Shown piece by piece: positions 8,907 through 37,132 of a stretch of DNA of 37,934 bases. The position numbers were made by a program, and so were the translations under genes. The notes beneath the pieces were generated by a model. The model was given only the letters and a program-made list of their open reading frames with translations, was not told where the DNA came from and made no database searches. This stretch comes from a virus. The stretch spans positions 1-37,934 of the IMG/VR virus record IMGVR_UViG_3300014913_000033; one strand, 5' to 3'. Positions within the stretch are counted from its first letter, which is position 1; each line of letters starts with the position of its first letter.

Positions 8907-9274
8907 ACAGAGAAAAAGCAATTGTCCTGACATGAACCTTTTCACTTCTTCACGAAAAGGTGAAAAAATAAAACGCCGTAACTGATTGAAAACTTAATAA
9001 GATATAGAGAAAAGTGAAAAAATCGCAAAAAAAAAGCAACCCCTATATATAATAAAAAAATAATATGTATAAACAAGTAACCCTTAAACGCAAAACAAAA
9101 TTATTTTTTAACTAGGACTTTTTTTTTTCACTTTTTCTATTCTTTGTATTAACTTCTTTAATACTAATACTTTAACCCTTATATATTTTTTCACTTTTGG
9201 TGAAAAAAGAGTGAAAAAGTGAAAAAGATGAAATTAGTAAGTAAAAAGGCTTAAAAAGATAGGAAATTGAGGAC
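8907..9274. other. Gene-free A+T-rich region with GTGAAAAA iterons: candidate replication origin
   Basis: No credible gene lies here. The octamer GTGAAAAA occurs on the plus strand at 8960, 9014, 9200, 9211 and 9219 and on the minus strand at 9124-9131 and 9187-9194; 9211 and 9219 are back to back. TTTTTTCAC (9186-9194) and GTGAAAAAA (9200-9208) form a 9-bp perfect inverted repeat with a 5-nt loop, and ACCTTTTC (8936-8943) with GAAAAGGT (8954-8961) a second, 8-bp one. Long A and T runs lie between them. Repeated sites plus easily melted DNA directly behind the replicative primase-helicase gene is the classic setting of an iteron origin; a cluster of regulator sites is the main alternative. 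Confidence 0.55.
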
Positions 9275-9304
9275 TTGACAAAATCAATCATAACTTGCTA
9301 AGTT
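9275..9304 (+). promoter_or_regulatory. Possible sigma70-type promoter for the small-gene early unit
   Basis: A perfect -35 TTGACA (9275-9280) is followed after 18 bp by a weak -10 (TAAGTT, 9299-9304) that has an upstream TG as in extended -10 promoters. It would drive the small genes from 9386 on. The poor -10 keeps confidence low. Confidence 0.4.
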
Positions 9305-9385
9305 CTGGCGGTGGTGATGAGATAGGATTTTTGGAAAGATGAGAGAAACTGTGAGAGAATCAAACTAAAAATAAAGGCGGTCAAA

Positions 9386-9565
9386 ATGACTGAAAAAGTA
9401 ACAGTAACTATTCAACTCGAACTAGGTCAAACGAAATTTGATTTTAACGAATCTGAAAGAAAAGAATTAGAATACCGATTAGAAAGATATTTTGTTGACT
9501 TCACAGGTTGGAATATTGGAAGGCTAGACATTGACATTGAGGACGGTGATCAAGATGACAGTTGA
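9386..9565 (+). CDS. Small acidic hypothetical protein
   Basis: A 59-residue frame starting MTEKVTVTIQLELGQ and ending in an Asp-rich tail (DIDIEDGDQDDS). It begins with a strand-like segment, then a charged helix (SERKELEYRLERYFVDF). The start has only a weak purine-rich upstream region (AAAGGCGG, 9373-9380). The end overlaps the next ATG by 11 nt, which supports translation of both. No family recognised; it is the first gene after the origin-like region. Confidence 0.5.
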   Translation: MTEKVTVTIQLELGQTKFDFNESERKELEYRLERYFVDFTGWNIGRLDIDIEDGDQDDS

Positions 9566-11203: not shown

Positions 11204-11734
11204 ATGGCCCGAATAACAAAATACGCACCCGAAACAATAAAGAAGGTGTTAGACTATGTACGCAAAGGGAATAAAGTCACTCATACGGCTAAGAAGTTCA
11301 ATCTTCCCTATTCCACTGTGCAAACATGGGTCTCAAGGTCTGGGCAAAAAGCCCACCAAAGACGCGACAAGCAAGGCGAAATTGAGATCACGGCAATCGA
11401 CCAACTTACGCCAAGAATCTACAAAGCCACTTCTGACATTCTCGATACTCTTACTAGTGCTGTTTCTGCCAAGTCTAACGCTAGGGAACGTAAGACAATC
11501 ACAAGCAACCTCGCACTTAAAGACGCTGGCAAATTCACCACGCAAGACGTTAAAAATCTTGCAACAGCTCTCGGAATTGTTTTCGATAAACTCGATAAAA
11601 CTCTCAAGAGTAACGATCCAAAGGGTAAGACAGGCGGAAAAATACTTGTCATGTGGGATAGTCCGCCAGTTGAAGAAGAGAAGTCTGACGAACATTATCC
11701 ACCTGTGCCAATGGGCGAAGAACATGAAGAATAG
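11204..11734 (+). CDS. terS: Terminase small subunit (putative)
   Basis: The DNA-recognition subunit of the packaging motor. The 176 residues start with a helix-turn-helix of the transposase/terminase type (ETIKKVLDYVRKGNKVTHTA, then KFNLPYSTVQTWV, about residues 9-43). A helical middle suited to oligomerisation follows (SDILDTLTSAVSAKSNA, DVKNLATALGIVFDKLDKTL), and the tail is acidic and Pro/Glu-rich (PPVEEEKSDEHYPP). Identification rests on this layout and on its place directly before the large subunit, with an 11-nt overlap. A GGGG site precedes the ATG. Confidence 0.82.
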   Translation: MARITKYAPETIKKVLDYVRKGNKVTHTAKKFNLPYSTVQTWVSRSGQKAHQRRDKQGEIEITAIDQLTPRIYKATSDILDTLTSAVSAKSNARERKTITSNLALKDAGKFTTQDVKNLATALGIVFDKLDKTLKSNDPKGKTGGKILVMWDSPPVEEEKSDEHYPPVPMGEEHEE

Positions 11735-13118
11735 AAGCGGAATAAATCCCAAAAATCACGATATTAAAATCAAGGACGGTCAAGTCGAAGGTGACAGGAT
11801 TGTAAGACTTGCGCCACCTTTAGGTCCATTGGCTGAGATCGTGCATAGTAACACACAATTTCAAGTTGTTGTTTGTGGTCGAAGAGTTGGGAAAACTGGT
11901 CAAGGTTTGCGATGGTTGTTAAAACGTGCTTTACAGTGTCCAAGCCCCGAATATGAAAACTGGTATATTGCACCGACAAAGGTTTGGGCGCGCCGAGTTG
12001 CTTGGCTTAGGCTCAAAAACCTTATTCCATTAGCACTAAGGGGCGCAAAACCCCCGAATGAGACACGCTACGAAATAGAGCTTGTAAACGGAAACAGGAT
12101 ACGATTAGTGGGAGCAGATAAGCCTAGCGATTTAGTTGGGAACGCCATTTGGAGCGCATTGCCCGACGAATACGGCGCAATGAAAGCCGATACGTTAGCC
12201 TATATTATGCCAGCTATTGCCGATGTTAAAGGTCACCTTCTTTTCCTTGGAACGCCAAGAGGTCGAAATCATTTTTATAAGCTGTATCAATACGGATTGA
12301 CATCAGGCAACCCGAAGTGGAAATCATACCCAATTTACAAGACAATCGACTCGCCTTGGGTAACAGAGCAACAAATCCAAAACGCTCGAAGCATTATGGA
12401 TCCACTTTTGTTCGCACAGGAGTTTGAAGGAAGTTTTGAGAACTATCGCGGAAAAGTTTACAATGACTTTTTGTCACAGGACGCACCACACGGTAACTTG
12501 ACGATTGCCGAGTTCAATCCCGAAATTGAGACATATTGCGGTTTAGACTTTGGCTGGACGCACCCTGTCGTCGCGGCGTGGATGCAATACGACCGAGTAA
12601 GAGACATTTGGTATTTATTGCGCGATGTTTTCGCTAGGAGTCAAGTCCGAACCGAGACCCTTATCGCAATGCTACACGGAAAGCCTGTCGAATTGTCAAA
12701 CGGTGTTTATCAATGCCCTGTACCTAGAGAATATATTCACAACGTCAAGTATATTGCTGGACATGAGGCGAATATAAAACGAGGTGAGGCGAACGGCGCT
12801 AACATGAAAAAAATCTTACGCGCCGGCGGAATCTTCTTGAAAGTTAAGTTTCATTATTTGGCTCCGTCTTTGTCATCTGTTAGAGCCTATATTTTGAACC
12901 CATCAGGCGAACGCCGATTTTTAGTTGATAAACGTGGAAATGACAAACCGCTCCACGATCTCGAAGCGTATCACTACCCAGAGAAAGACGGTGTTTTAAT
13001 CGGTGAAGAGCCTGTCAAGGATGGTAGTGACGATATTCCCGATGCTATAAGATACGTAATTGATACGATTACACCGCTGAAACAGTCAATAAGAAAAAAG
13101 GTGGGAAAATGGTATTAA
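11724..13118 (+). CDS. terL: Terminase large subunit
   Basis: ATPase-nuclease that pumps DNA into the capsid and cuts it. The frame is open back to 11256, but that part shadows the small subunit; the ATG at 11724 gives a normal 464 residues. Motifs: Walker A GRRVGKT (52-58), Walker B-like ALPDEYG with Asp-Glu at 148-149, coupling motif FLGTPRG (174-180), and the RNase H-like nuclease with GLDFGW (Asp at about 275) and a C-terminal DDIPDAIRY acidic site. The residues before Walker B are less hydrophobic than usual, but the catalytic Glu is present. The ribosome binding site is weak, consistent with coupling to the small-subunit gene. Confidence 0.93.
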   Translation: MKNRSGINPKNHDIKIKDGQVEGDRIVRLAPPLGPLAEIVHSNTQFQVVVCGRRVGKTGQGLRWLLKRALQCPSPEYENWYIAPTKVWARRVAWLRLKNLIPLALRGAKPPNETRYEIELVNGNRIRLVGADKPSDLVGNAIWSALPDEYGAMKADTLAYIMPAIADVKGHLLFLGTPRGRNHFYKLYQYGLTSGNPKWKSYPIYKTIDSPWVTEQQIQNARSIMDPLLFAQEFEGSFENYRGKVYNDFLSQDAPHGNLTIAEFNPEIETYCGLDFGWTHPVVAAWMQYDRVRDIWYLLRDVFARSQVRTETLIAMLHGKPVELSNGVYQCPVPREYIHNVKYIAGHEANIKRGEANGANMKKILRAGGIFLKVKFHYLAPSLSSVRAYILNPSGERRFLVDKRGNDKPLHDLEAYHYPEKDGVLIGEEPVKDGSDDIPDAIRYVIDTITPLKQSIRKKVGKWY

Positions 13119-23603: not shown

Positions 23604-26558
23604 ATGCCCTCAACGTGGAATGAAAAACTTGCGTATATCCTGTCTGTTGATGATAAAGGCTTTAATTTCAATGGCTCTCTTGCTCAAATTGAGTTAGTCA
23701 ATAACGCTATTATTGATATGCTTTCAGGCGTGGACGAGATGTACAGTGACATGATAGGCTTAGCGTCCGCTCTTGAAACTGAAATGGCGAACGTATCAAC
23801 ACTTCTTGACGGTGACACGGCTGTCATTGACCGATATACTGACGCGATTATCGAACTATCGACACAAGTTCCCGAATCGGCTGTTAATCTCTCACAAGGT
23901 CTCTATCAAGTCATATCGGCTGGCGTGGACGCTTCACAGGCGATGCAAGTTCTTGAGACTTCATCAAGGGCGGCCGTTGCTGGAATGTCCGATACTTACA
24001 CAGGCGTGGACGCAATCACAACAATTTTGAACGCCTATTCGATGGACGCTTCTCGTGCTGAAGAGGTATCCGATATGCTTTTCCAGACTGTGCGACTTGG
24101 TAAGACTACCTTTGGTGAGCTTTCTGGCTATGTTGGTACATTTGCAACGAACGCCGCTAGTCTTGGTATTGAGTTAAGCGATGTCTCCGCCGCTATGGCA
24201 ACTATGACAAAATCGGGTCTTAAGACAGCAAGATCGGCAACCGCTCTTGACGCGATTATGAGAGAAATTTCCAAAAAGGGCGAGATTGTCAAACTGTTCA
24301 AACAAGCTGGGTATGAATCGTCTGAAATGGCGCTCAAAACTTTGGGCCTACAAGGTGCGATTAAATTGGCTGGCGATCAAGCCAAAAAGACAGGCGTAAA
24401 ATTTAATCAACTTTGGGGCGAAGAGGCTTTGCGTGGTGCGACAATTCTCAATCAAAATTTTGAGATGGCAAAAAAGGACTTAGACGCAATGGCCCTTGCC
24501 TCTGGCTCGACTTCTCTTGCCTATGAAAAAGCCGTTGACACACTAGAGAACGCTGAACAAAGGCGAATCAATGCTTATGAAGCTCTATTGACAAAAATGG
24601 GTCAAGATGTGTTACCATTGCACAAGAAATATAATGAGATGTTGACAGGGATTTATGGCTCCCTTGCAAAGCTCCCAGCAAGTCAAAGAATGGTGATGAC
24701 AGGAATGTTAGGAATGGCAAGGGCAACAAGCGGAATCGTGCAATTTAGCGGAAAGTGGATGAGAAACGTAGCGAGTATCAAAGAGGGGTATATGGCCCTT
24801 GCGCCGATATTGGCGAAGATTAAAGCTCTCAAGACAGGCGAAGAATTGGCGAAAGGTGCGAACGAAGCGGCGGACGCTCTCAAAGGTGCGACAGGCGGAG
24901 CAAAAAGTCTTAAAGGAATGCTTGGCAAGGCTGGACTTGGGGCCGCGATTGCTTTCACAGCTACTCAATTAATCGCCCTTGGTGGTGCGATTATGGAATT
25001 TAACGCCGCTAAAAAAGAGATGCTCGCAAGCCAAAAGGCGACCGAGGAAGCATTTACCGACATGACAGGCGGAAAAACCGAAGCTGAAAAAGCCGCTTTA
25101 ATGATAGGTAACTTAAAAAAACTTGAAGAAATTTTGGCGGAAAAGCTAACAGGAAGCGAACGCGCTCAAAAGGCTAAAGCGGACGCAATTAATAAGTATA
25201 TTGACCAACTAGACGCAAGGACAATCGCGGAAATAAGGGCAACAGGCTTAGAGCTAAATTCTATTGAAGATATTCGTCGTCTTAGAGAATTAGGATCGGC
25301 GCAACAGGCAATCGAAAACCAAAAAGCTCACGAGCAACATCTCCAACGCCAAGCCGACCAAGCAAAAGAACTCGAGGACGCTGTTAAAAACGGCGAGACA
25401 AAAACGCAAATTATCGAAAAACTTGTAGCTCAATATAAAGCCCTTGGAGGTTCCTACACACTGGCGAAAGAATGGGAAACACTTGACGATAAAAAGCTCA
25501 AAAAAATGATTGACGGACTAGAACTTAAAATTACTCAAATCAAAGAAAAGCACGTCAAGGACCGAGAAACTAGATTGGCAAAGCTCTCCGCGAAGAATAG
25601 ACAGACGGAATATCGCATGGAGCTTGAAGAACTCAAACGGTCAACCATCGATAAAACCGACTTGCAGATCACAGAAGCTGAACGCCACTGGTCAAGGGAA
25701 AAGCAACTCGCAACTGGTAACATGACAAGACAAAAAGAGATAGACGCGGATTACGGCGAAGTCTTAAAAGAACTGTATGCACAAAGGGAAGTTCAACAAG
25801 AAGCGTATTATACGGCAATTCGCACACAGATTGAAGAAACTAGACAGGCTGAGTGGGACGCTTTTTCAGAATTCCAAAAGGACGAAGCAATCAAAGAACA
25901 ATTTGAGAAAGAGACACAGCTAAAACTCGATGACTTGGATATAAAAGCAAACGATGAAAAACTAGAAAGAGGGCGAACCCTTAACGAAAAACTCAAAGAC
26001 TTGGCGGCTGAAAATTATGAAGTTCAAGAAGAAACATCTAACGCAATAATCGAACTATATCGGACAATGGGAACAGAAGCAGGGCGCGCATTTGGCGAGA
26101 CAAAGAGCCTAAAAGAAGCGATGAAAGCCGCTTTATTGGTCAAGCTGGAAGCTCTCAAAGCCGATTTACAGTTAAAATATGCTTTGATAACCGCTGAAGA
26201 TGTTACTACAAAGGGATTTGCTGGTCTTGCAACAGCAAGTATTAAAATCGCCGCTCTCGAAGGGCTTTTCGCATTGGCAAGTAACGCCGTGGCAAGTTTT
26301 GATGATGGTGGTATCCCGACAACCGCTGGCGTGGCTACTGTTCATCCTACTGACGTTATTGTCAACCCCACAACCGATAACCCTATGATGACAGCGCTTG
26401 TCGATAGAATCACCGAAGCAATGGGCGGACAAATGGGAACAGTTGAACTCACAATGGACGGCGAGAAAATGGGCGAAGCAAATATCGGACATATTAACAG
26501 ACGCAATCGCCAACTGAAAAACGGTCGAGATGTGTTTGATGAATCGAGGTTTAATTGA
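23604..26558 (+). CDS. Tail tape measure protein
   Basis: A 984-residue protein that sets tail length and is carried inside the tube. Residues about 50-235 contain the TP901-type tape-measure core (DVSAAMATMTKSGLKTARSA, GVDASQAMQVLETSSRAAVA, ELSGYVGTFATNAASLGIEL). Residues about 370-470 are Gly/Ala-rich and hydrophobic, the probable membrane-active part. About 500-850 is long charged coiled coil. The end has the familiar FDDGGIPTTAGVATVHPTDV segment. By the usual rule of about 0.15 nm per residue the tail would be near 150 nm. No peptidase motif noticed. It ends in a TTGA overlap with the hub gene. Confidence 0.92.
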   Translation: MPSTWNEKLAYILSVDDKGFNFNGSLAQIELVNNAIIDMLSGVDEMYSDMIGLASALETEMANVSTLLDGDTAVIDRYTDAIIELSTQVPESAVNLSQGLYQVISAGVDASQAMQVLETSSRAAVAGMSDTYTGVDAITTILNAYSMDASRAEEVSDMLFQTVRLGKTTFGELSGYVGTFATNAASLGIELSDVSAAMATMTKSGLKTARSATALDAIMREISKKGEIVKLFKQAGYESSEMALKTLGLQGAIKLAGDQAKKTGVKFNQLWGEEALRGATILNQNFEMAKKDLDAMALASGSTSLAYEKAVDTLENAEQRRINAYEALLTKMGQDVLPLHKKYNEMLTGIYGSLAKLPASQRMVMTGMLGMARATSGIVQFSGKWMRNVASIKEGYMALAPILAKIKALKTGEELAKGANEAADALKGATGGAKSLKGMLGKAGLGAAIAFTATQLIALGGAIMEFNAAKKEMLASQKATEEAFTDMTGGKTEAEKAALMIGNLKKLEEILAEKLTGSERAQKAKADAINKYIDQLDARTIAEIRATGLELNSIEDIRRLRELGSAQQAIENQKAHEQHLQRQADQAKELEDAVKNGETKTQIIEKLVAQYKALGGSYTLAKEWETLDDKKLKKMIDGLELKITQIKEKHVKDRETRLAKLSAKNRQTEYRMELEELKRSTIDKTDLQITEAERHWSREKQLATGNMTRQKEIDADYGEVLKELYAQREVQQEAYYTAIRTQIEETRQAEWDAFSEFQKDEAIKEQFEKETQLKLDDLDIKANDEKLERGRTLNEKLKDLAAENYEVQEETSNAIIELYRTMGTEAGRAFGETKSLKEAMKAALLVKLEALKADLQLKYALITAEDVTTKGFAGLATASIKIAALEGLFALASNAVASFDDGGIPTTAGVATVHPTDVIVNPTTDNPMMTALVDRITEAMGGQMGTVELTMDGEKMGEANIGHINRRNRQLKNGRDVFDESRFN

Positions 26559-28414
26559 GCTTAAAAATATTCATTCAAATTATCGGCGGTTATCTAAGGC
26601 CACCGAACGAATTAATTGACATAACAGACAGGATTTCCGAGAACTCTCTAAAGTCCTTTTCAGAACAAATGGAAAACGGTCGATTTGCTTTCACAGCAAG
26701 TGACGTAAATATCGAGATCACTAACTTTGACGATTTTCTTTATGTGCCTGTATCGTTACCAACAACATTTTTGACGCATGGGTTTAATACTTACATTTTC
26801 TGGGAAGATGTCGAACAATTCCGAGGTGTGTCTTATTTTGGCGATGTTTCATTCGACGACATAAAAAAAACGGCAACTTTCAAAACAATTTCTTGGCTTA
26901 AAAGATTGCGTGACTTAACTCTCACAGATTGGCAAGCTCCAACGACTTTGACGGCGCTATATTCCGAGATTGACGAAAGAATTCAAGGGGTGTCTGGAAG
27001 TCCGTCTTTTGAGCCAAGCGATATTGACCTGACAGGAGTTTTAGAGTTTGAATTTGGGGTCGAGATAGGTGACAGTGATCCCGAAAGTGGGTTTGTTTAC
27101 GAAGATGTCTGGCGAGATCATAGGAACGGCAAGTTTTTTGCTATCCGGCGCGATGGTGAAAATATCTCTTTTTATCAAATCCAAGGCAATGAACACACCT
27201 TAAAAGCTACCTTCCCGATTGACCTTGACGCTGTTGATTATGTCGATGTGCGAATAATAACGGTTTTTTATGTGAAGTTTATAAGGGCCGTTGCAAGTGA
27301 TGATATTAGCGGAGTCACCGTAAAATATACGATTAGACGGCCGTCTGTGGCTGACCAAGTTAGAGTTAAAAATATCATCTTCCTACAAGACGGCGAAGAT
27401 TTACACCCGACTTACTATTCCGCCGTTGACCAAAACGAACGCTATGCAATTACAAGCGGAGCATTATTCACAGCACCAACGATATTTGGCAATGTGGGTG
27501 AGATAGTCCGCTCCGATGGGTTTAATTTGTTCATCTTTTCAGAAATAACGGACGGAATAAGAATCGAGAAAAAGACTAGAACTGGCGTATTAATTGGAAC
27601 CTATGACATAGCAGAGAATATACCTTTCGATATTAATTCGATTGACGTGAGTTCACTAAATACTATTTCTTGGTATGATTTCAAGACAGACGATGGGCGA
27701 TGGTATTGGATAAGATGGGAAAGTATGAGCGATTTTTCGGGCGTGGTTAATATCGGCGATGGTGTCAATATTGCGAATGTGCCAATAGCTCAAGAATATC
27801 ACATTTACCCTTTGTCTTATGCTGAAGATATTTACTGTGGAAAGTTCTCATATTGCCTTTGGCGTGAAGATTTGGGCGGTGGTGCGATAGTTTACGACGA
27901 ATGGTGGACAGATGACCCTATTTTTATCATTCTTTCCGCTATGGTGTACAAAGAGACGACTCTCGAAGATATTATCACTGATTTAACGCAATTTTTCAAC
28001 GGTCAATTTTTTGTCAAAGATGGAACGGTTTTTATTATCAATAGGGGCAAGTCAAGGGGTGAGTTCACTGTCTCAACGGATTGGATAGAGAAAAGCAACT
28101 TTGATCGAACTTTGCGCGAAGAAATTGAGAAAAAACCGTTTTTGGATATTAGGGCCAATAAAGCAAGTGACGACAAAGACAATCTTTACTCAACGCGAAC
28201 ACTAATGGGGACACTACGAAACTATTACAAGACGGCTAACAGATGGGTAAAGAGAACGCTCACGATTCCGCTCACAGTTGCGAAAGACATAAGACTAGGG
28301 TCAAAGGTAACGATAACCGAGACAGGCGATTCTGGGGTCGTTATAGAGCGTGGAATAAATGTCGAAAACAAGGGCAAGATGGCGAGCCTTACAATTGAAA
28401 CCGAGATAACTTAG
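26555..28414 (+). CDS. Distal tail / baseplate hub protein (putative)
   Basis: A 619-residue protein after the tape measure, where tail-tip proteins lie. It starts with TTG in a TTGA overlap, with CGAGGT just upstream; no better ATG is near. The N-terminal part (DITDRISENSLKSFSEQMEN, FTASDVNIEITNFDDFL, SYFGDVSFDDIKKTATFKTI) and the C-terminal part (TLTIPLTVAKDIRLGSKVTI, then GDSGVVIERGINVENKGKMA) resemble hub proteins of the gp27/Tal type. The centre (about residues 150-450) is beta-rich with many aromatic residues and may be an inserted carbohydrate-binding-like domain. It is the last gene of the plus-strand late operon. Confidence 0.65.
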   Translation: MSLKIFIQIIGGYLRPPNELIDITDRISENSLKSFSEQMENGRFAFTASDVNIEITNFDDFLYVPVSLPTTFLTHGFNTYIFWEDVEQFRGVSYFGDVSFDDIKKTATFKTISWLKRLRDLTLTDWQAPTTLTALYSEIDERIQGVSGSPSFEPSDIDLTGVLEFEFGVEIGDSDPESGFVYEDVWRDHRNGKFFAIRRDGENISFYQIQGNEHTLKATFPIDLDAVDYVDVRIITVFYVKFIRAVASDDISGVTVKYTIRRPSVADQVRVKNIIFLQDGEDLHPTYYSAVDQNERYAITSGALFTAPTIFGNVGEIVRSDGFNLFIFSEITDGIRIEKKTRTGVLIGTYDIAENIPFDINSIDVSSLNTISWYDFKTDDGRWYWIRWESMSDFSGVVNIGDGVNIANVPIAQEYHIYPLSYAEDIYCGKFSYCLWREDLGGGAIVYDEWWTDDPIFIILSAMVYKETTLEDIITDLTQFFNGQFFVKDGTVFIINRGKSRGEFTVSTDWIEKSNFDRTLREEIEKKPFLDIRANKASDDKDNLYSTRTLMGTLRNYYKTANRWVKRTLTIPLTVAKDIRLGSKVTITETGDSGVVIERGINVENKGKMASLTIETEIT

Positions 28415-28423
28415 ACAAACCCC

Positions 28424-28452
28424 TTGACAACCGACAGCGTAAGCCGTATTAT
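28424..28452 (+). promoter_or_regulatory. Strong sigma70-type promoter
   Basis: Consensus -35 TTGACA (28424-28429), an exact 17-bp spacer, and -10 TATTAT (28447-28452). It starts 10 bp after the end of the hub gene and points into a short terminated transcript, with the ribbon-helix-helix gene beyond. Start site expected near 28459. Confidence 0.8.
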
Positions 28453-28458
28453 ACTCGT

Positions 28459-28524
28459 GCATATACATCTCCGTTTGGGAACTGACCTCGCTCTGTGCTA
28501 TCCTCTGGCACGGAGCTTTTTTTT
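28459..28524 (+). ncRNA. Candidate small RNA or attenuator leader (about 65 nt)
   Basis: Bounded by a near-consensus promoter and an intrinsic terminator, with no start codon plus ribosome binding site inside. The 3' end is a 9-bp hairpin (28490-28498 with 28508-28516) and eight T. The segment CTCCGT (28469-28474) is perfectly complementary to ACGGAG (28510-28515) inside the terminator arm, so an alternative fold that breaks the terminator is possible. It could be a stable phage small RNA or a switch controlling read-through into the regulator gene at 28624. I recognise no known RNA family. Confidence 0.6.
28490..28524 (+). terminator. Intrinsic terminator after the tail operon / small RNA
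   Basis: GCTCTGTGC (28490-28498) pairs with GCACGGAGC (28508-28516) over nine positions with one G-T, loop of nine, followed by eight T (28517-28524). Serves both the incoming late operon and the transcript from the promoter at 28424. Confidence 0.88.
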
Positions 28525-28623
28525 ATTAAAGCCTAAATACTTCTTGACGATAATTATAAATAGTAGTTTATTATTTATAAGCCAATAAATAAATAAGTAT
28601 TTATTGTAAAAATGGAGGTTGTT

Positions 28624-28881
28624 ATGGCGAAAGAAAGACTCGCAGGCGGTGCTTTGAAGGTTATAAGGGGACGATTGTCTATCTCAAAGAGCTTGTTTCT
28701 TCCCTTGCAGATTAGTGATTGGTTACAGGCAAAGGCAAAAAGGGATCACATGACACTAACTGGGCTTGTACTGGAGATCATTACTAAGCACATTAAGGAA
28801 TTTGACCCTAATTATTGGGGCGATACTAGGGTAAAGTACGAGGACAAGACAGATGAATATTTGGCGAAGGGTGAAAGTTAA
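28624..28881 (+). CDS. Ribbon-helix-helix DNA-binding regulator (putative)
   Basis: An 85-residue protein. The ATG at 28624 has GGAGG at 28614-28618; an ATG at 28612 is in frame but overlaps that site and is less likely. Residues about 20-58 follow the RHH pattern: a strand (SKSLFLPLQ), helix A (ISDWLQAKAKRDH), a turn (MTLT) and helix B (GLVLEIITKHIKEF). RHH proteins bind DNA as dimers through the strand and usually repress promoters. It lies alone between two terminators and downstream of the small-RNA element. A second possible -35 (TTGACG at 28544) precedes it, with only a loosely spaced -10. The C-terminal tail is charged. Confidence 0.65.
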   Translation: MAKERLAGGALKVIRGRLSISKSLFLPLQISDWLQAKAKRDHMTLTGLVLEIITKHIKEFDPNYWGDTRVKYEDKTDEYLAKGES

Positions 28882-28898
28882 ATCTTCTCAAAAATAAG

Positions 28899-28933
28899 CA
28901 AACAAAAAGGGGCAATTAACCCCTTTTTGTTTG
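28899..28933. terminator. Bidirectional terminator between converging operons
   Basis: A perfect 14-bp inverted repeat: CAAACAAAAAGGGG (28899-28912), loop CAATTAA, CCCCTTTTTGTTTG (28920-28933). GGGG/CCCC stem core with T tracts in both directions, placed between the ends of the plus-strand regulator gene and the minus-strand late operon. Confidence 0.88.
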
Positions 28934-28961
28934 TAGCTGTATGAAAGAAGTAGTGTGGAAG

Positions 28962-34745: not shown

Positions 34746-36079
34746 ATCTTAGTCCTCCAATGTGAAATGCCTTTGGGGTCTGTTGTCCAGAGTTGCAATT
34801 CATCACCAGCCGTTATTGGCAAGGATAGCCCTGAGATATTGCCTTGCTTGTTAGAACTTGCCACCGTAAAACTTCCAGACGTACCAGTTGTAGTTGATTT
34901 ATATTTCATCGTACAATCACCACTTAAAGCCGATTGACTATAAAATTCTATCCCTGTAATTGTTACATTGTGTATCTGGAAGATTTGCCTGATGTAATTC
35001 GTCAATGGCGAACCGCCTGACTCCGTTGCAGTTGGGAAGTTCTCACTATCGCCTATATCAATTGAATCCAAAGCATAGACACTTGAAGAACCGCCCCCAC
35101 TTGTGCAAACCGACAAGCCATTGAGTACACCACTAAACTCTTGAGTATAAGTTGGAATCTCAACTTCAATGCTCTGCACAGTTGACCAAGTGAAAGAAGA
35201 ATCTGCTCGACCCTTCGCACCGATAGCATAATAAAGCACAAGATTTGTATTAATTGAGCTTGTTAAATCGAATCTTCGCGAATAATAAGGGATTTCTGAA
35301 AGTGGTGTCAATTGGCGTGTTTCATGTGCTAAATCGGAATAAGTCGCCGGTAAACTTTCGCCTGTGTGTTTCCATAAATGCCTTGTCTTGTACTCAATAC
35401 CGTTCACATCTTGAGCCGTCCACAGTACATCGACTCCCATATCGCCTAGAAAGTCATGTATTCCTGAAGGTGTGACTGCATTGCCTGTCTCAAGAGCCGT
35501 TATCCTGACTTCGTGATCATCTAAAGCACTCTCGACATCGGTAAAAACTCCGACTGTGCAGGTTATTCCACTTGCTGAATGTGCGTCCGTTGTGTTGTCG
35601 AGATGGGTTTTTAGACTGTCGTCAGAAGCTCTTGACCAAGTAGCACCAGCAATCTCATCAAGGGCAAGCTTTAGGTCTGTGTTAAGCCTTGCTTGATCGG
35701 TTGCAGGTATTGCGATTGCGTTTGTCTCGTGTCTCATGTCTGTATCGTCGTCGTTGATATGATTATCGAAGTCTAATGTTGAATGATGAATATTCTCTTT
35801 GTGACCTATTGTCGTATAGACAGGCGAACCGCCCGAATCGTCTTTGAGTTGAAGTCTATATTTTCCCTTTGGTATCCATTGAAAAAAATAGCTATTAGGA
35901 TTGCCGACAGGGTTATCCTCCGTCAGTTCCCACCATTCATTGACATCTATCACAGCAGGGGTAGATGGATCGGCGTAAGCACTGCCGATATATCGACAAG
36001 CGAATATTCCAGCCCTTGCCGTGCCAGCCCCTGTGAGCTTTGCCCCTATGTACTCTAATACGTTTAATTTTCTCGCCAT
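34727..36079 (-). CDS. Tail fibre / baseplate appendage protein (putative)
   Basis: A 450-residue protein with AAGGAG before its ATG. The N-terminal 110 residues (LNVLEYIGAKLTGAGTARAG, WELTEDNPVGNPNSYFFQWI) look like a virion-attachment domain. A middle segment with HINDDDTDMRHET, LDNTTDAHSASG and VESALDDHEVRITALE is typical of phage fibres with helical linkers and conserved His/Asp turns. The C-terminal half is beta-rich (GVLNGLSVCTSGGGSSSVYA, TGTSGSFTVASSNKQGN) and may bind receptor. No signal peptide, unlike the giant protein downstream, so this one is the better candidate for a true virion receptor-binding protein. Confidence 0.65.
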   Translation of the reverse strand: MARKLNVLEYIGAKLTGAGTARAGIFACRYIGSAYADPSTPAVIDVNEWWELTEDNPVGNPNSYFFQWIPKGKYRLQLKDDSGGSPVYTTIGHKENIHHSTLDFDNHINDDDTDMRHETNAIAIPATDQARLNTDLKLALDEIAGATWSRASDDSLKTHLDNTTDAHSASGITCTVGVFTDVESALDDHEVRITALETGNAVTPSGIHDFLGDMGVDVLWTAQDVNGIEYKTRHLWKHTGESLPATYSDLAHETRQLTPLSEIPYYSRRFDLTSSINTNLVLYYAIGAKGRADSSFTWSTVQSIEVEIPTYTQEFSGVLNGLSVCTSGGGSSSVYALDSIDIGDSENFPTATESGGSPLTNYIRQIFQIHNVTITGIEFYSQSALSGDCTMKYKSTTTGTSGSFTVASSNKQGNISGLSLPITAGDELQLWTTDPKGISHWRTKIWFTRT

Positions 36080-36682: not shown

Positions 36683-36707
36683 AGAAATACCCTCCTATTT
36701 ATATTAT

Positions 36708-36735
36708 AGTATAGAGATTTTCAAGAAAAATGCAA
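36708..36735 (-). promoter_or_regulatory. Promoter of the minus-strand late operon (putative)
   Basis: On the minus strand: -35 TTGCAT (36730-36735), 16 bp, -10 TATACT (36708-36713), with an overlapping TATAAT (36703-36708) as an alternative -10. It begins 2 bp after the T run of the upstream terminator and about 26 bp before the first gene's start codon. Confidence 0.55.
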
Positions 36736-36736
36736 C

Positions 36737-36774
36737 AAAAAACCCCTTGACCAGTGTAAAACATAGTCAAGGGG
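36737..36774 (-). terminator. Intrinsic terminator of the right-end operon
   Basis: On the minus strand CCCCTTGAC and GTCAAGGGG (positions 36766-36774 and 36743-36751) form a 9-bp perfect stem with a 14-nt loop, followed by six T (36742-36737). It closes the small-gene unit and insulates the late promoter just behind it. Confidence 0.82.
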
Positions 36775-36806
36775 TAAGTAGGGGTTACTTTTAATTTTTT
36801 CCTTGT

Positions 36807-36830
36807 TCACAAATCTATCTCAACTTTCAT
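36807..36830 (-). CDS. Seven-codon minigene (MKVEIDL), copy 1
   Basis: Minus-strand ATG, six further codons and TGA, with GAAAGGAA at a good distance before it. It has the same form as the copy at 37081-37104: over 40 bp the two blocks differ at only 4 positions, and the peptides differ only by conservative changes. Directly followed by the terminator. It could be a translated minigene, a leader, or a duplicated fragment. Confidence 0.4.
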   Translation of the reverse strand: MKVEIDL

Positions 36831-36862
36831 AGGCAATTCCTTTCTTTGAGTTTTTTTTGCCT

Positions 36863-37045
36863 CTATCGAATCCAAAAATGTACACAACTTAATGCAGCAA
36901 GAATTAGCATCTGTACTGCAAATATTTTCAATGCGAGTTTTTCGTCCAAATCCCTCAGCTTGTCAATCCTATTCCTAATTTTGGCAGCATTTGCAACCAT
37001 TAGAAAAATGATTGCCAAAATGCAAAATCCCAGTAACAATTCCAT
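36863..37045 (-). CDS. Small two-span membrane protein
   Basis: A 60-residue protein with two predicted membrane helices (MELLLGFCILAIIFLMVANA and LALKIFAVQMLILAALSCVH) joined by a short basic/acidic loop (KIRNRIDKLRDLDEK). GGGAG lies about 10 nt before the ATG. Size and topology resemble class II holins, but it belongs to the separate right-end operon, not to the endolysin cluster, so superinfection exclusion or another membrane function is just as likely. Confidence 0.6.
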   Translation of the reverse strand: MELLLGFCILAIIFLMVANAAKIRNRIDKLRDLDEKLALKIFAVQMLILAALSCVHFWIR

Positions 37046-37080
37046 ATAATACTACTCCCTTTTCTAGTTGTTTTTTCTTC

Positions 37081-37104
37081 TCACAAATCAATATCAATTT
37101 TCAT
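37081..37104 (-). CDS. Seven-codon minigene (MKIDIDL), copy 2
   Basis: ATG, six codons and TGA on the minus strand, with a strong GAAAGGAG (37111-37118) before it. It stands about 35 bp upstream of the two-span membrane protein gene. Paired with the copy at 36807-36830. Confidence 0.42.
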   Translation of the reverse strand: MKIDIDL

Positions 37105-37132
37105 AGGCAACTCCTTTCTTATTGTTGTTTTT

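Follow-up and report, generated by a model that had tools for sequence, protein, structure and literature searches.

The 37.9-kb virus record IMGVR_UViG_3300014913_000033, analysed here over its whole length of 37,934 nt (the window), is that of a tailed phage. A rightward block (~0–28.4 kb) comprises helicase, methylase-like genes, primase/helicase, terminase, capsid and tape measure, and a leftward block (37.8–28.96 kb) converges on it. In the rightward block a small-terminase-like ORF (11204–11734) overlaps the long terminase ORF (11256–13118) in a different frame over ~480 bases; the terminase gene probably begins near 11700 rather than at 11256. Two long stretches, 8907–9530 and 36683–37132, are devoid of convincing coding-strand genes, which is unusual for a dense phage genome. 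In the gap between the converging blocks (28415–28961), an intrinsic terminator is followed by an 85-aa gene and then by a terminator that is likely bidirectional. The features considered below are the following:

23604–26558: tape measure protein (PHROG match)
26555–28414, plus strand: putative tail hub/baseplate protein gene, an ORF downstream of the tape measure gene and the last of the rightward structural operon
28424–28452, plus strand: sigma-70-type promoter, TTGACA-17-TATTAT, 11/12 consensus bases
28459–28524, plus strand: predicted short transcript of ~58–66 nt (start inferred from the -10, shape from folding), with a nearly unstructured 5' part of 31 nt, a hairpin and a U tail
28469–28474, plus strand: CTCCGT, the claimed anti-terminator strand, judged not to form (pair probability ~1e-6)
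28490–28524, plus strand: intrinsic terminator ending the rightward operon, 9–11 bp stem, 5-nt loop, T8 (-18 kcal/mol, z -7.3)
28544–28574, plus strand: candidate promoter of the regulator gene, TTGACG-19-TATTAT, with a spacer longer than optimal
28583–28606, plus strand: palindrome CAATAAATA-AATAAG-TATTTATTG with perfect 9-bp arms, candidate operator (1 of 100 shuffles as good)
28624–28881, plus strand: gene of a small protein (85 aa) whose sequence pattern is ribbon-helix-helix-like, with a GGAGG Shine-Dalgarno
28899–28933: hairpin with a perfect 14-bp stem flanked by A and T tracts, likely bidirectional terminator between the converging operons
35311–35282, minus strand: further 11/12 promoter, inside a gene
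37930–37903, minus strand: further 11/12 promoter, from which the entire leftward block could be transcribed

The putative hub protein has no PHROG or Pfam match. The promoter that follows its gene is composed of TTGACA (28424–28429) and TATTAT (28447–28452), and its 17-bp spacing is optimal with respect to a sigma-70 consensus that may not be that of the host. It lies in a true intergenic gap, ends 37 nt before the intrinsic terminator and, judging from the position of its -10, would start transcription at about 28459. The hairpin arms of the terminator are GCTCTGTGC/GCACGGAGC; folding extends the stem to 11 bp with a loop of 5 nt (28490–28516), and T8 (28517–28524) comes directly after it. 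The stability of this structure is far past chance (z -7.3, 0 of 200 shuffles as good) and in the 66-nt RNA its pairs form with probabilities of 0.89–1.00. A first-pass annotation of this DNA had reported a near-perfect promoter and a 9-bp hairpin with eight T: the letters and coordinates of the promoter are all correct, and hairpin and T8 were verified, with a stem of 11 bp when folded. At the sequence level, hairpin and T8 form an intrinsic terminator of ordinary type that ends the rightward structural operon, and the two elements that a small RNA (sRNA) would need to be a discrete transcript of 50–200 nt, i.e. its own promoter and a 3' terminator, are both present.

If RNA polymerase starts at about 28459 from this near-consensus promoter, the operon terminator would stop it after ~58–66 nt. 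The product would be an untranslated RNA composed of an open 5' half, GCAUAUACAUCUCCGUUUGGGAACUGACCUC, a stable terminator hairpin and a U tail, which would be the usual layout of a trans-acting sRNA; no anti-termination step would be involved. The 31 nt of the 5' part are predicted to be essentially unstructured (-3.2 kcal/mol, z ~0). No ORF with a start and a ribosome site was found inside 28459–28524, in agreement with what had been noted before, and ARAGORN detected no tRNA or tmRNA. The covariance-model search that had been recommended was run and gave no Rfam family at the gathering threshold within the window. Two weaker matches were rejected as artefacts: IS102 (25 vs 46 bits, A/T-rich, on the minus strand) and suhB, far under threshold and attributed to composition.

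The downstream gene is the one whose read-through was supposed to be controlled. Its 85-aa product matches no Pfam or PHROG family, and the structure model, with helices at 27–40 and 45–60, is of low confidence (pLDDT 60). The region 28544–28606 is A/T-rich (18% GC) and combines the 19-bp-spaced promoter with several nested palindromes; it is likely an autoregulatory operator. BLAST matches to 28550–28619 were discarded as A/T-rich low-complexity. Since a promoter (28544–28574) and a palindrome (28583–28606) of its own are apparent, the regulator gene would need no read-through, and this layout suggests that it is expressed independently of the upstream terminator.

The first-pass annotation had proposed an attenuator deciding read-through to the regulator, in which CTCCGT pairs with ACGGAG (28510–28515) in the terminator arm. 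Transcription from the promoter at 28424 would then pass a leaky or regulated terminator to reach the regulator gene, with this helix as anti-terminator. The two 6-nt segments are indeed exactly complementary and correctly located, the regulator gene lies on the same strand 100 nt further on, and such a complement arises in just 1.6% of shuffled leaders, which is nevertheless weak, after-the-fact evidence. As in leader attenuators of the amino-acid operon or riboswitch type, there is a promoter, a short leader, an intrinsic terminator and a same-strand downstream gene; unlike them, this leader has no stable competing fold and no sensing element. The minimum-energy folding suggested as a check was run, as were folds of growing chains, and the terminator hairpin wins both ways. 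The best fold containing the CTCCGT/ACGGAG helix is about 10 kcal/mol worse (-11.5 vs -21.4 kcal/mol), its pairing probability in the 66-nt RNA is ~1e-6, and in growing-chain folds the local hairpin forms once its 3' arm emerges. In attenuators it is normally the 5' arm of the terminator that becomes sequestered, at a time when the 3' arm has yet to be transcribed. Here CTCCGT would have to pair over a 35-nt loop with the 3' arm, which is made late, and because it takes this arm and not the 5' arm the alternative helix cannot precede the local hairpin. Besides, the stretch from the terminator to the start codon contains sequences resembling a promoter and an operator, which suggests a regulator independent of read-through, and the read-through leader is predicted to mask the regulator's Shine-Dalgarno site, although pairing with that site is at least as good for 15% of shuffled leaders. 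An anti-terminator switch between two folds is thus not supported. The attenuator was discarded for four reasons, namely folding energy, pairing probability, the order in which the arms are synthesised and the apparently independent downstream promoter, and we regard it as very improbable. Of the earlier suggestion of a ~65-nt small RNA or attenuator, the short terminated RNA stays plausible from the spacing of promoter and terminator, while the attenuator is left unsupported.

A promoter closely followed by a terminator is also the layout of Q-dependent late promoters. The short RNA could then be the prematurely ended product of a promoter antiterminated by a phage factor loading there, as lambda Q does at pR', the late promoter of the 6S leader RNA, which is likewise followed by a terminator a short way downstream. 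Unlike at lambda pR', there is nothing substantial to read into: read-through would come to the likely bidirectional terminator (28899–28933) after a single gene of 258 bp, without reaching late genes. In addition, no Q-like antitermination factor was identified among the proteins scanned, which are part of the phage's proteins. We hold this reading to be very improbable.

The main rival to a small RNA is a promoter match arising by chance, or a passive one, with no dedicated product, the terminator being simply the end of the operon. At least 11/12 consensus bases are found at three sites on both strands of the window, against 0.7–1.9 expected in Markov sequences of order 1–3, and the two others, both on the minus strand, include the one inside a gene at 35311. 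On the other hand, the probability that such a site falls on the correct strand in these ~75 nt is ~0.1–0.2%, the coincidence at this one terminator amounts to ~0.1–0.4%, and the gap is truly intergenic.

To obtain a base rate we used 210 intrinsic-terminator-like sites from 1.54 Mb of DNA, made up of the window and 112 fetched loci that are nearly all phage, with regions shifted 300–1100 nt upstream of the terminators as controls. An 11/12 promoter 10–90 nt upstream on the same strand was found at a single terminator, that at 28490–28524. Of the control regions 0–2% (mean 0.4%) contain one, so that about one such pair is expected by chance over the whole set. On the strand of the terminator, promoters of at least 9/12 show no upstream excess (7% vs 4–8% in controls), which also favours a chance match. 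They are enriched downstream (17%), as the promoter of the next operon is expected there. The arrangement is therefore unusual in this sample (1/210 with 11/12) yet outside any visible general class, since promoters of at least 9/12 show no upstream enrichment. The first-pass remark that a promoter just before the operon terminator is superfluous for termination is a fair one, but a chance promoter fits it equally well. On balance, it seems to us a reasonable though tentative proposal that the terminator also forms the 3' end of a ~58–66 nt untranslated phage small RNA with its own promoter, a chance promoter being nearly as likely.

If this small RNA acts, the most likely mode would be base-pairing between ribosome-binding sites and its open 5' part, which contains CUCC. 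The mean pairing of the leader with the ribosome-binding sites of the phage does exceed that of shuffled leaders (1 of 300 as good), an effect that mostly reflects the 4-nt CUCC. The best candidate target in the phage would be the start of the primase/helicase mRNA (6324), predicted to pair with the leader at -24.4 kcal/mol across the Shine-Dalgarno and the start codon. Only 0.25% of intragenic windows pair as well. This pairing is weakly significant at most: 22 of 300 shuffled leaders reach the same energy with some gene, i.e. p ~0.07 after counting genes, which is not significant. For this reason the primase/helicase start is only a lead as a target of the putative RNA. Among 300 shuffles, 45 pair with the regulator mRNA as well as the leader does. 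A more specific version, in which an anti-Shine-Dalgarno sRNA with its own promoter would end at the late-operon terminator and shut off early genes such as primase/helicase while the structural genes are made, appears very improbable.

Relatives were sought through the hub, small regulator, portal, MCP and terminase proteins, and through the RNA itself. No relative of the predicted RNA, the putative hub or the regulator protein was found in the phage, viral-contig and plasmid searches, and portal and hub have no match in the collections searched. The protein relatives are only terminases of at most ~36% identity, capsid proteins of at most ~31% and weakly similar tape measure proteins; in none of the relatives with a similar terminase, capsid or tape measure is the hub, the regulator or the RNA present. 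The 18-base core of the RNA gives only chance matches in bacterial and archaeal genomes. CTCCGTTTGGGAACTGAC has exact matches in a viral contig and in two bacterial genomes, which were set aside because their number is about what chance would give, or lower; the match in the viral contig falls in a stretch that reads as terminase-like coding sequence, with surroundings devoid of similarity. Judged from these sequence comparisons, the phage is without close relative in the collections searched.

Phage-encoded small RNAs of ~50–80 nt have been described, including P22 sar, lambda OOP, Sp5 AgvB and AsxR, and VP882 VpdS; sar is 68/69 nt long, OOP 77 nt, AgvB ~60 nt and DicF 53 nt (PMC12197685). 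The RNA predicted here resembles them by its size class, its open 5' region and a U-tailed intrinsic terminator as predicted 3' end. It differs from them in that it has no sequence or Rfam match and is a prediction from sequence, and in that it is not antisense to an overlapping known gene but sits at the end of a structural operon. An attenuator, if true, would matter more, but that reading fails. If expressed, the predicted transcript would be one more phage small RNA, functionally in line with sar, OOP or AgvB. Its layout, with its own promoter between the last structural gene and the terminator of that gene, would be unique in the 1.54 Mb examined, mostly phage.
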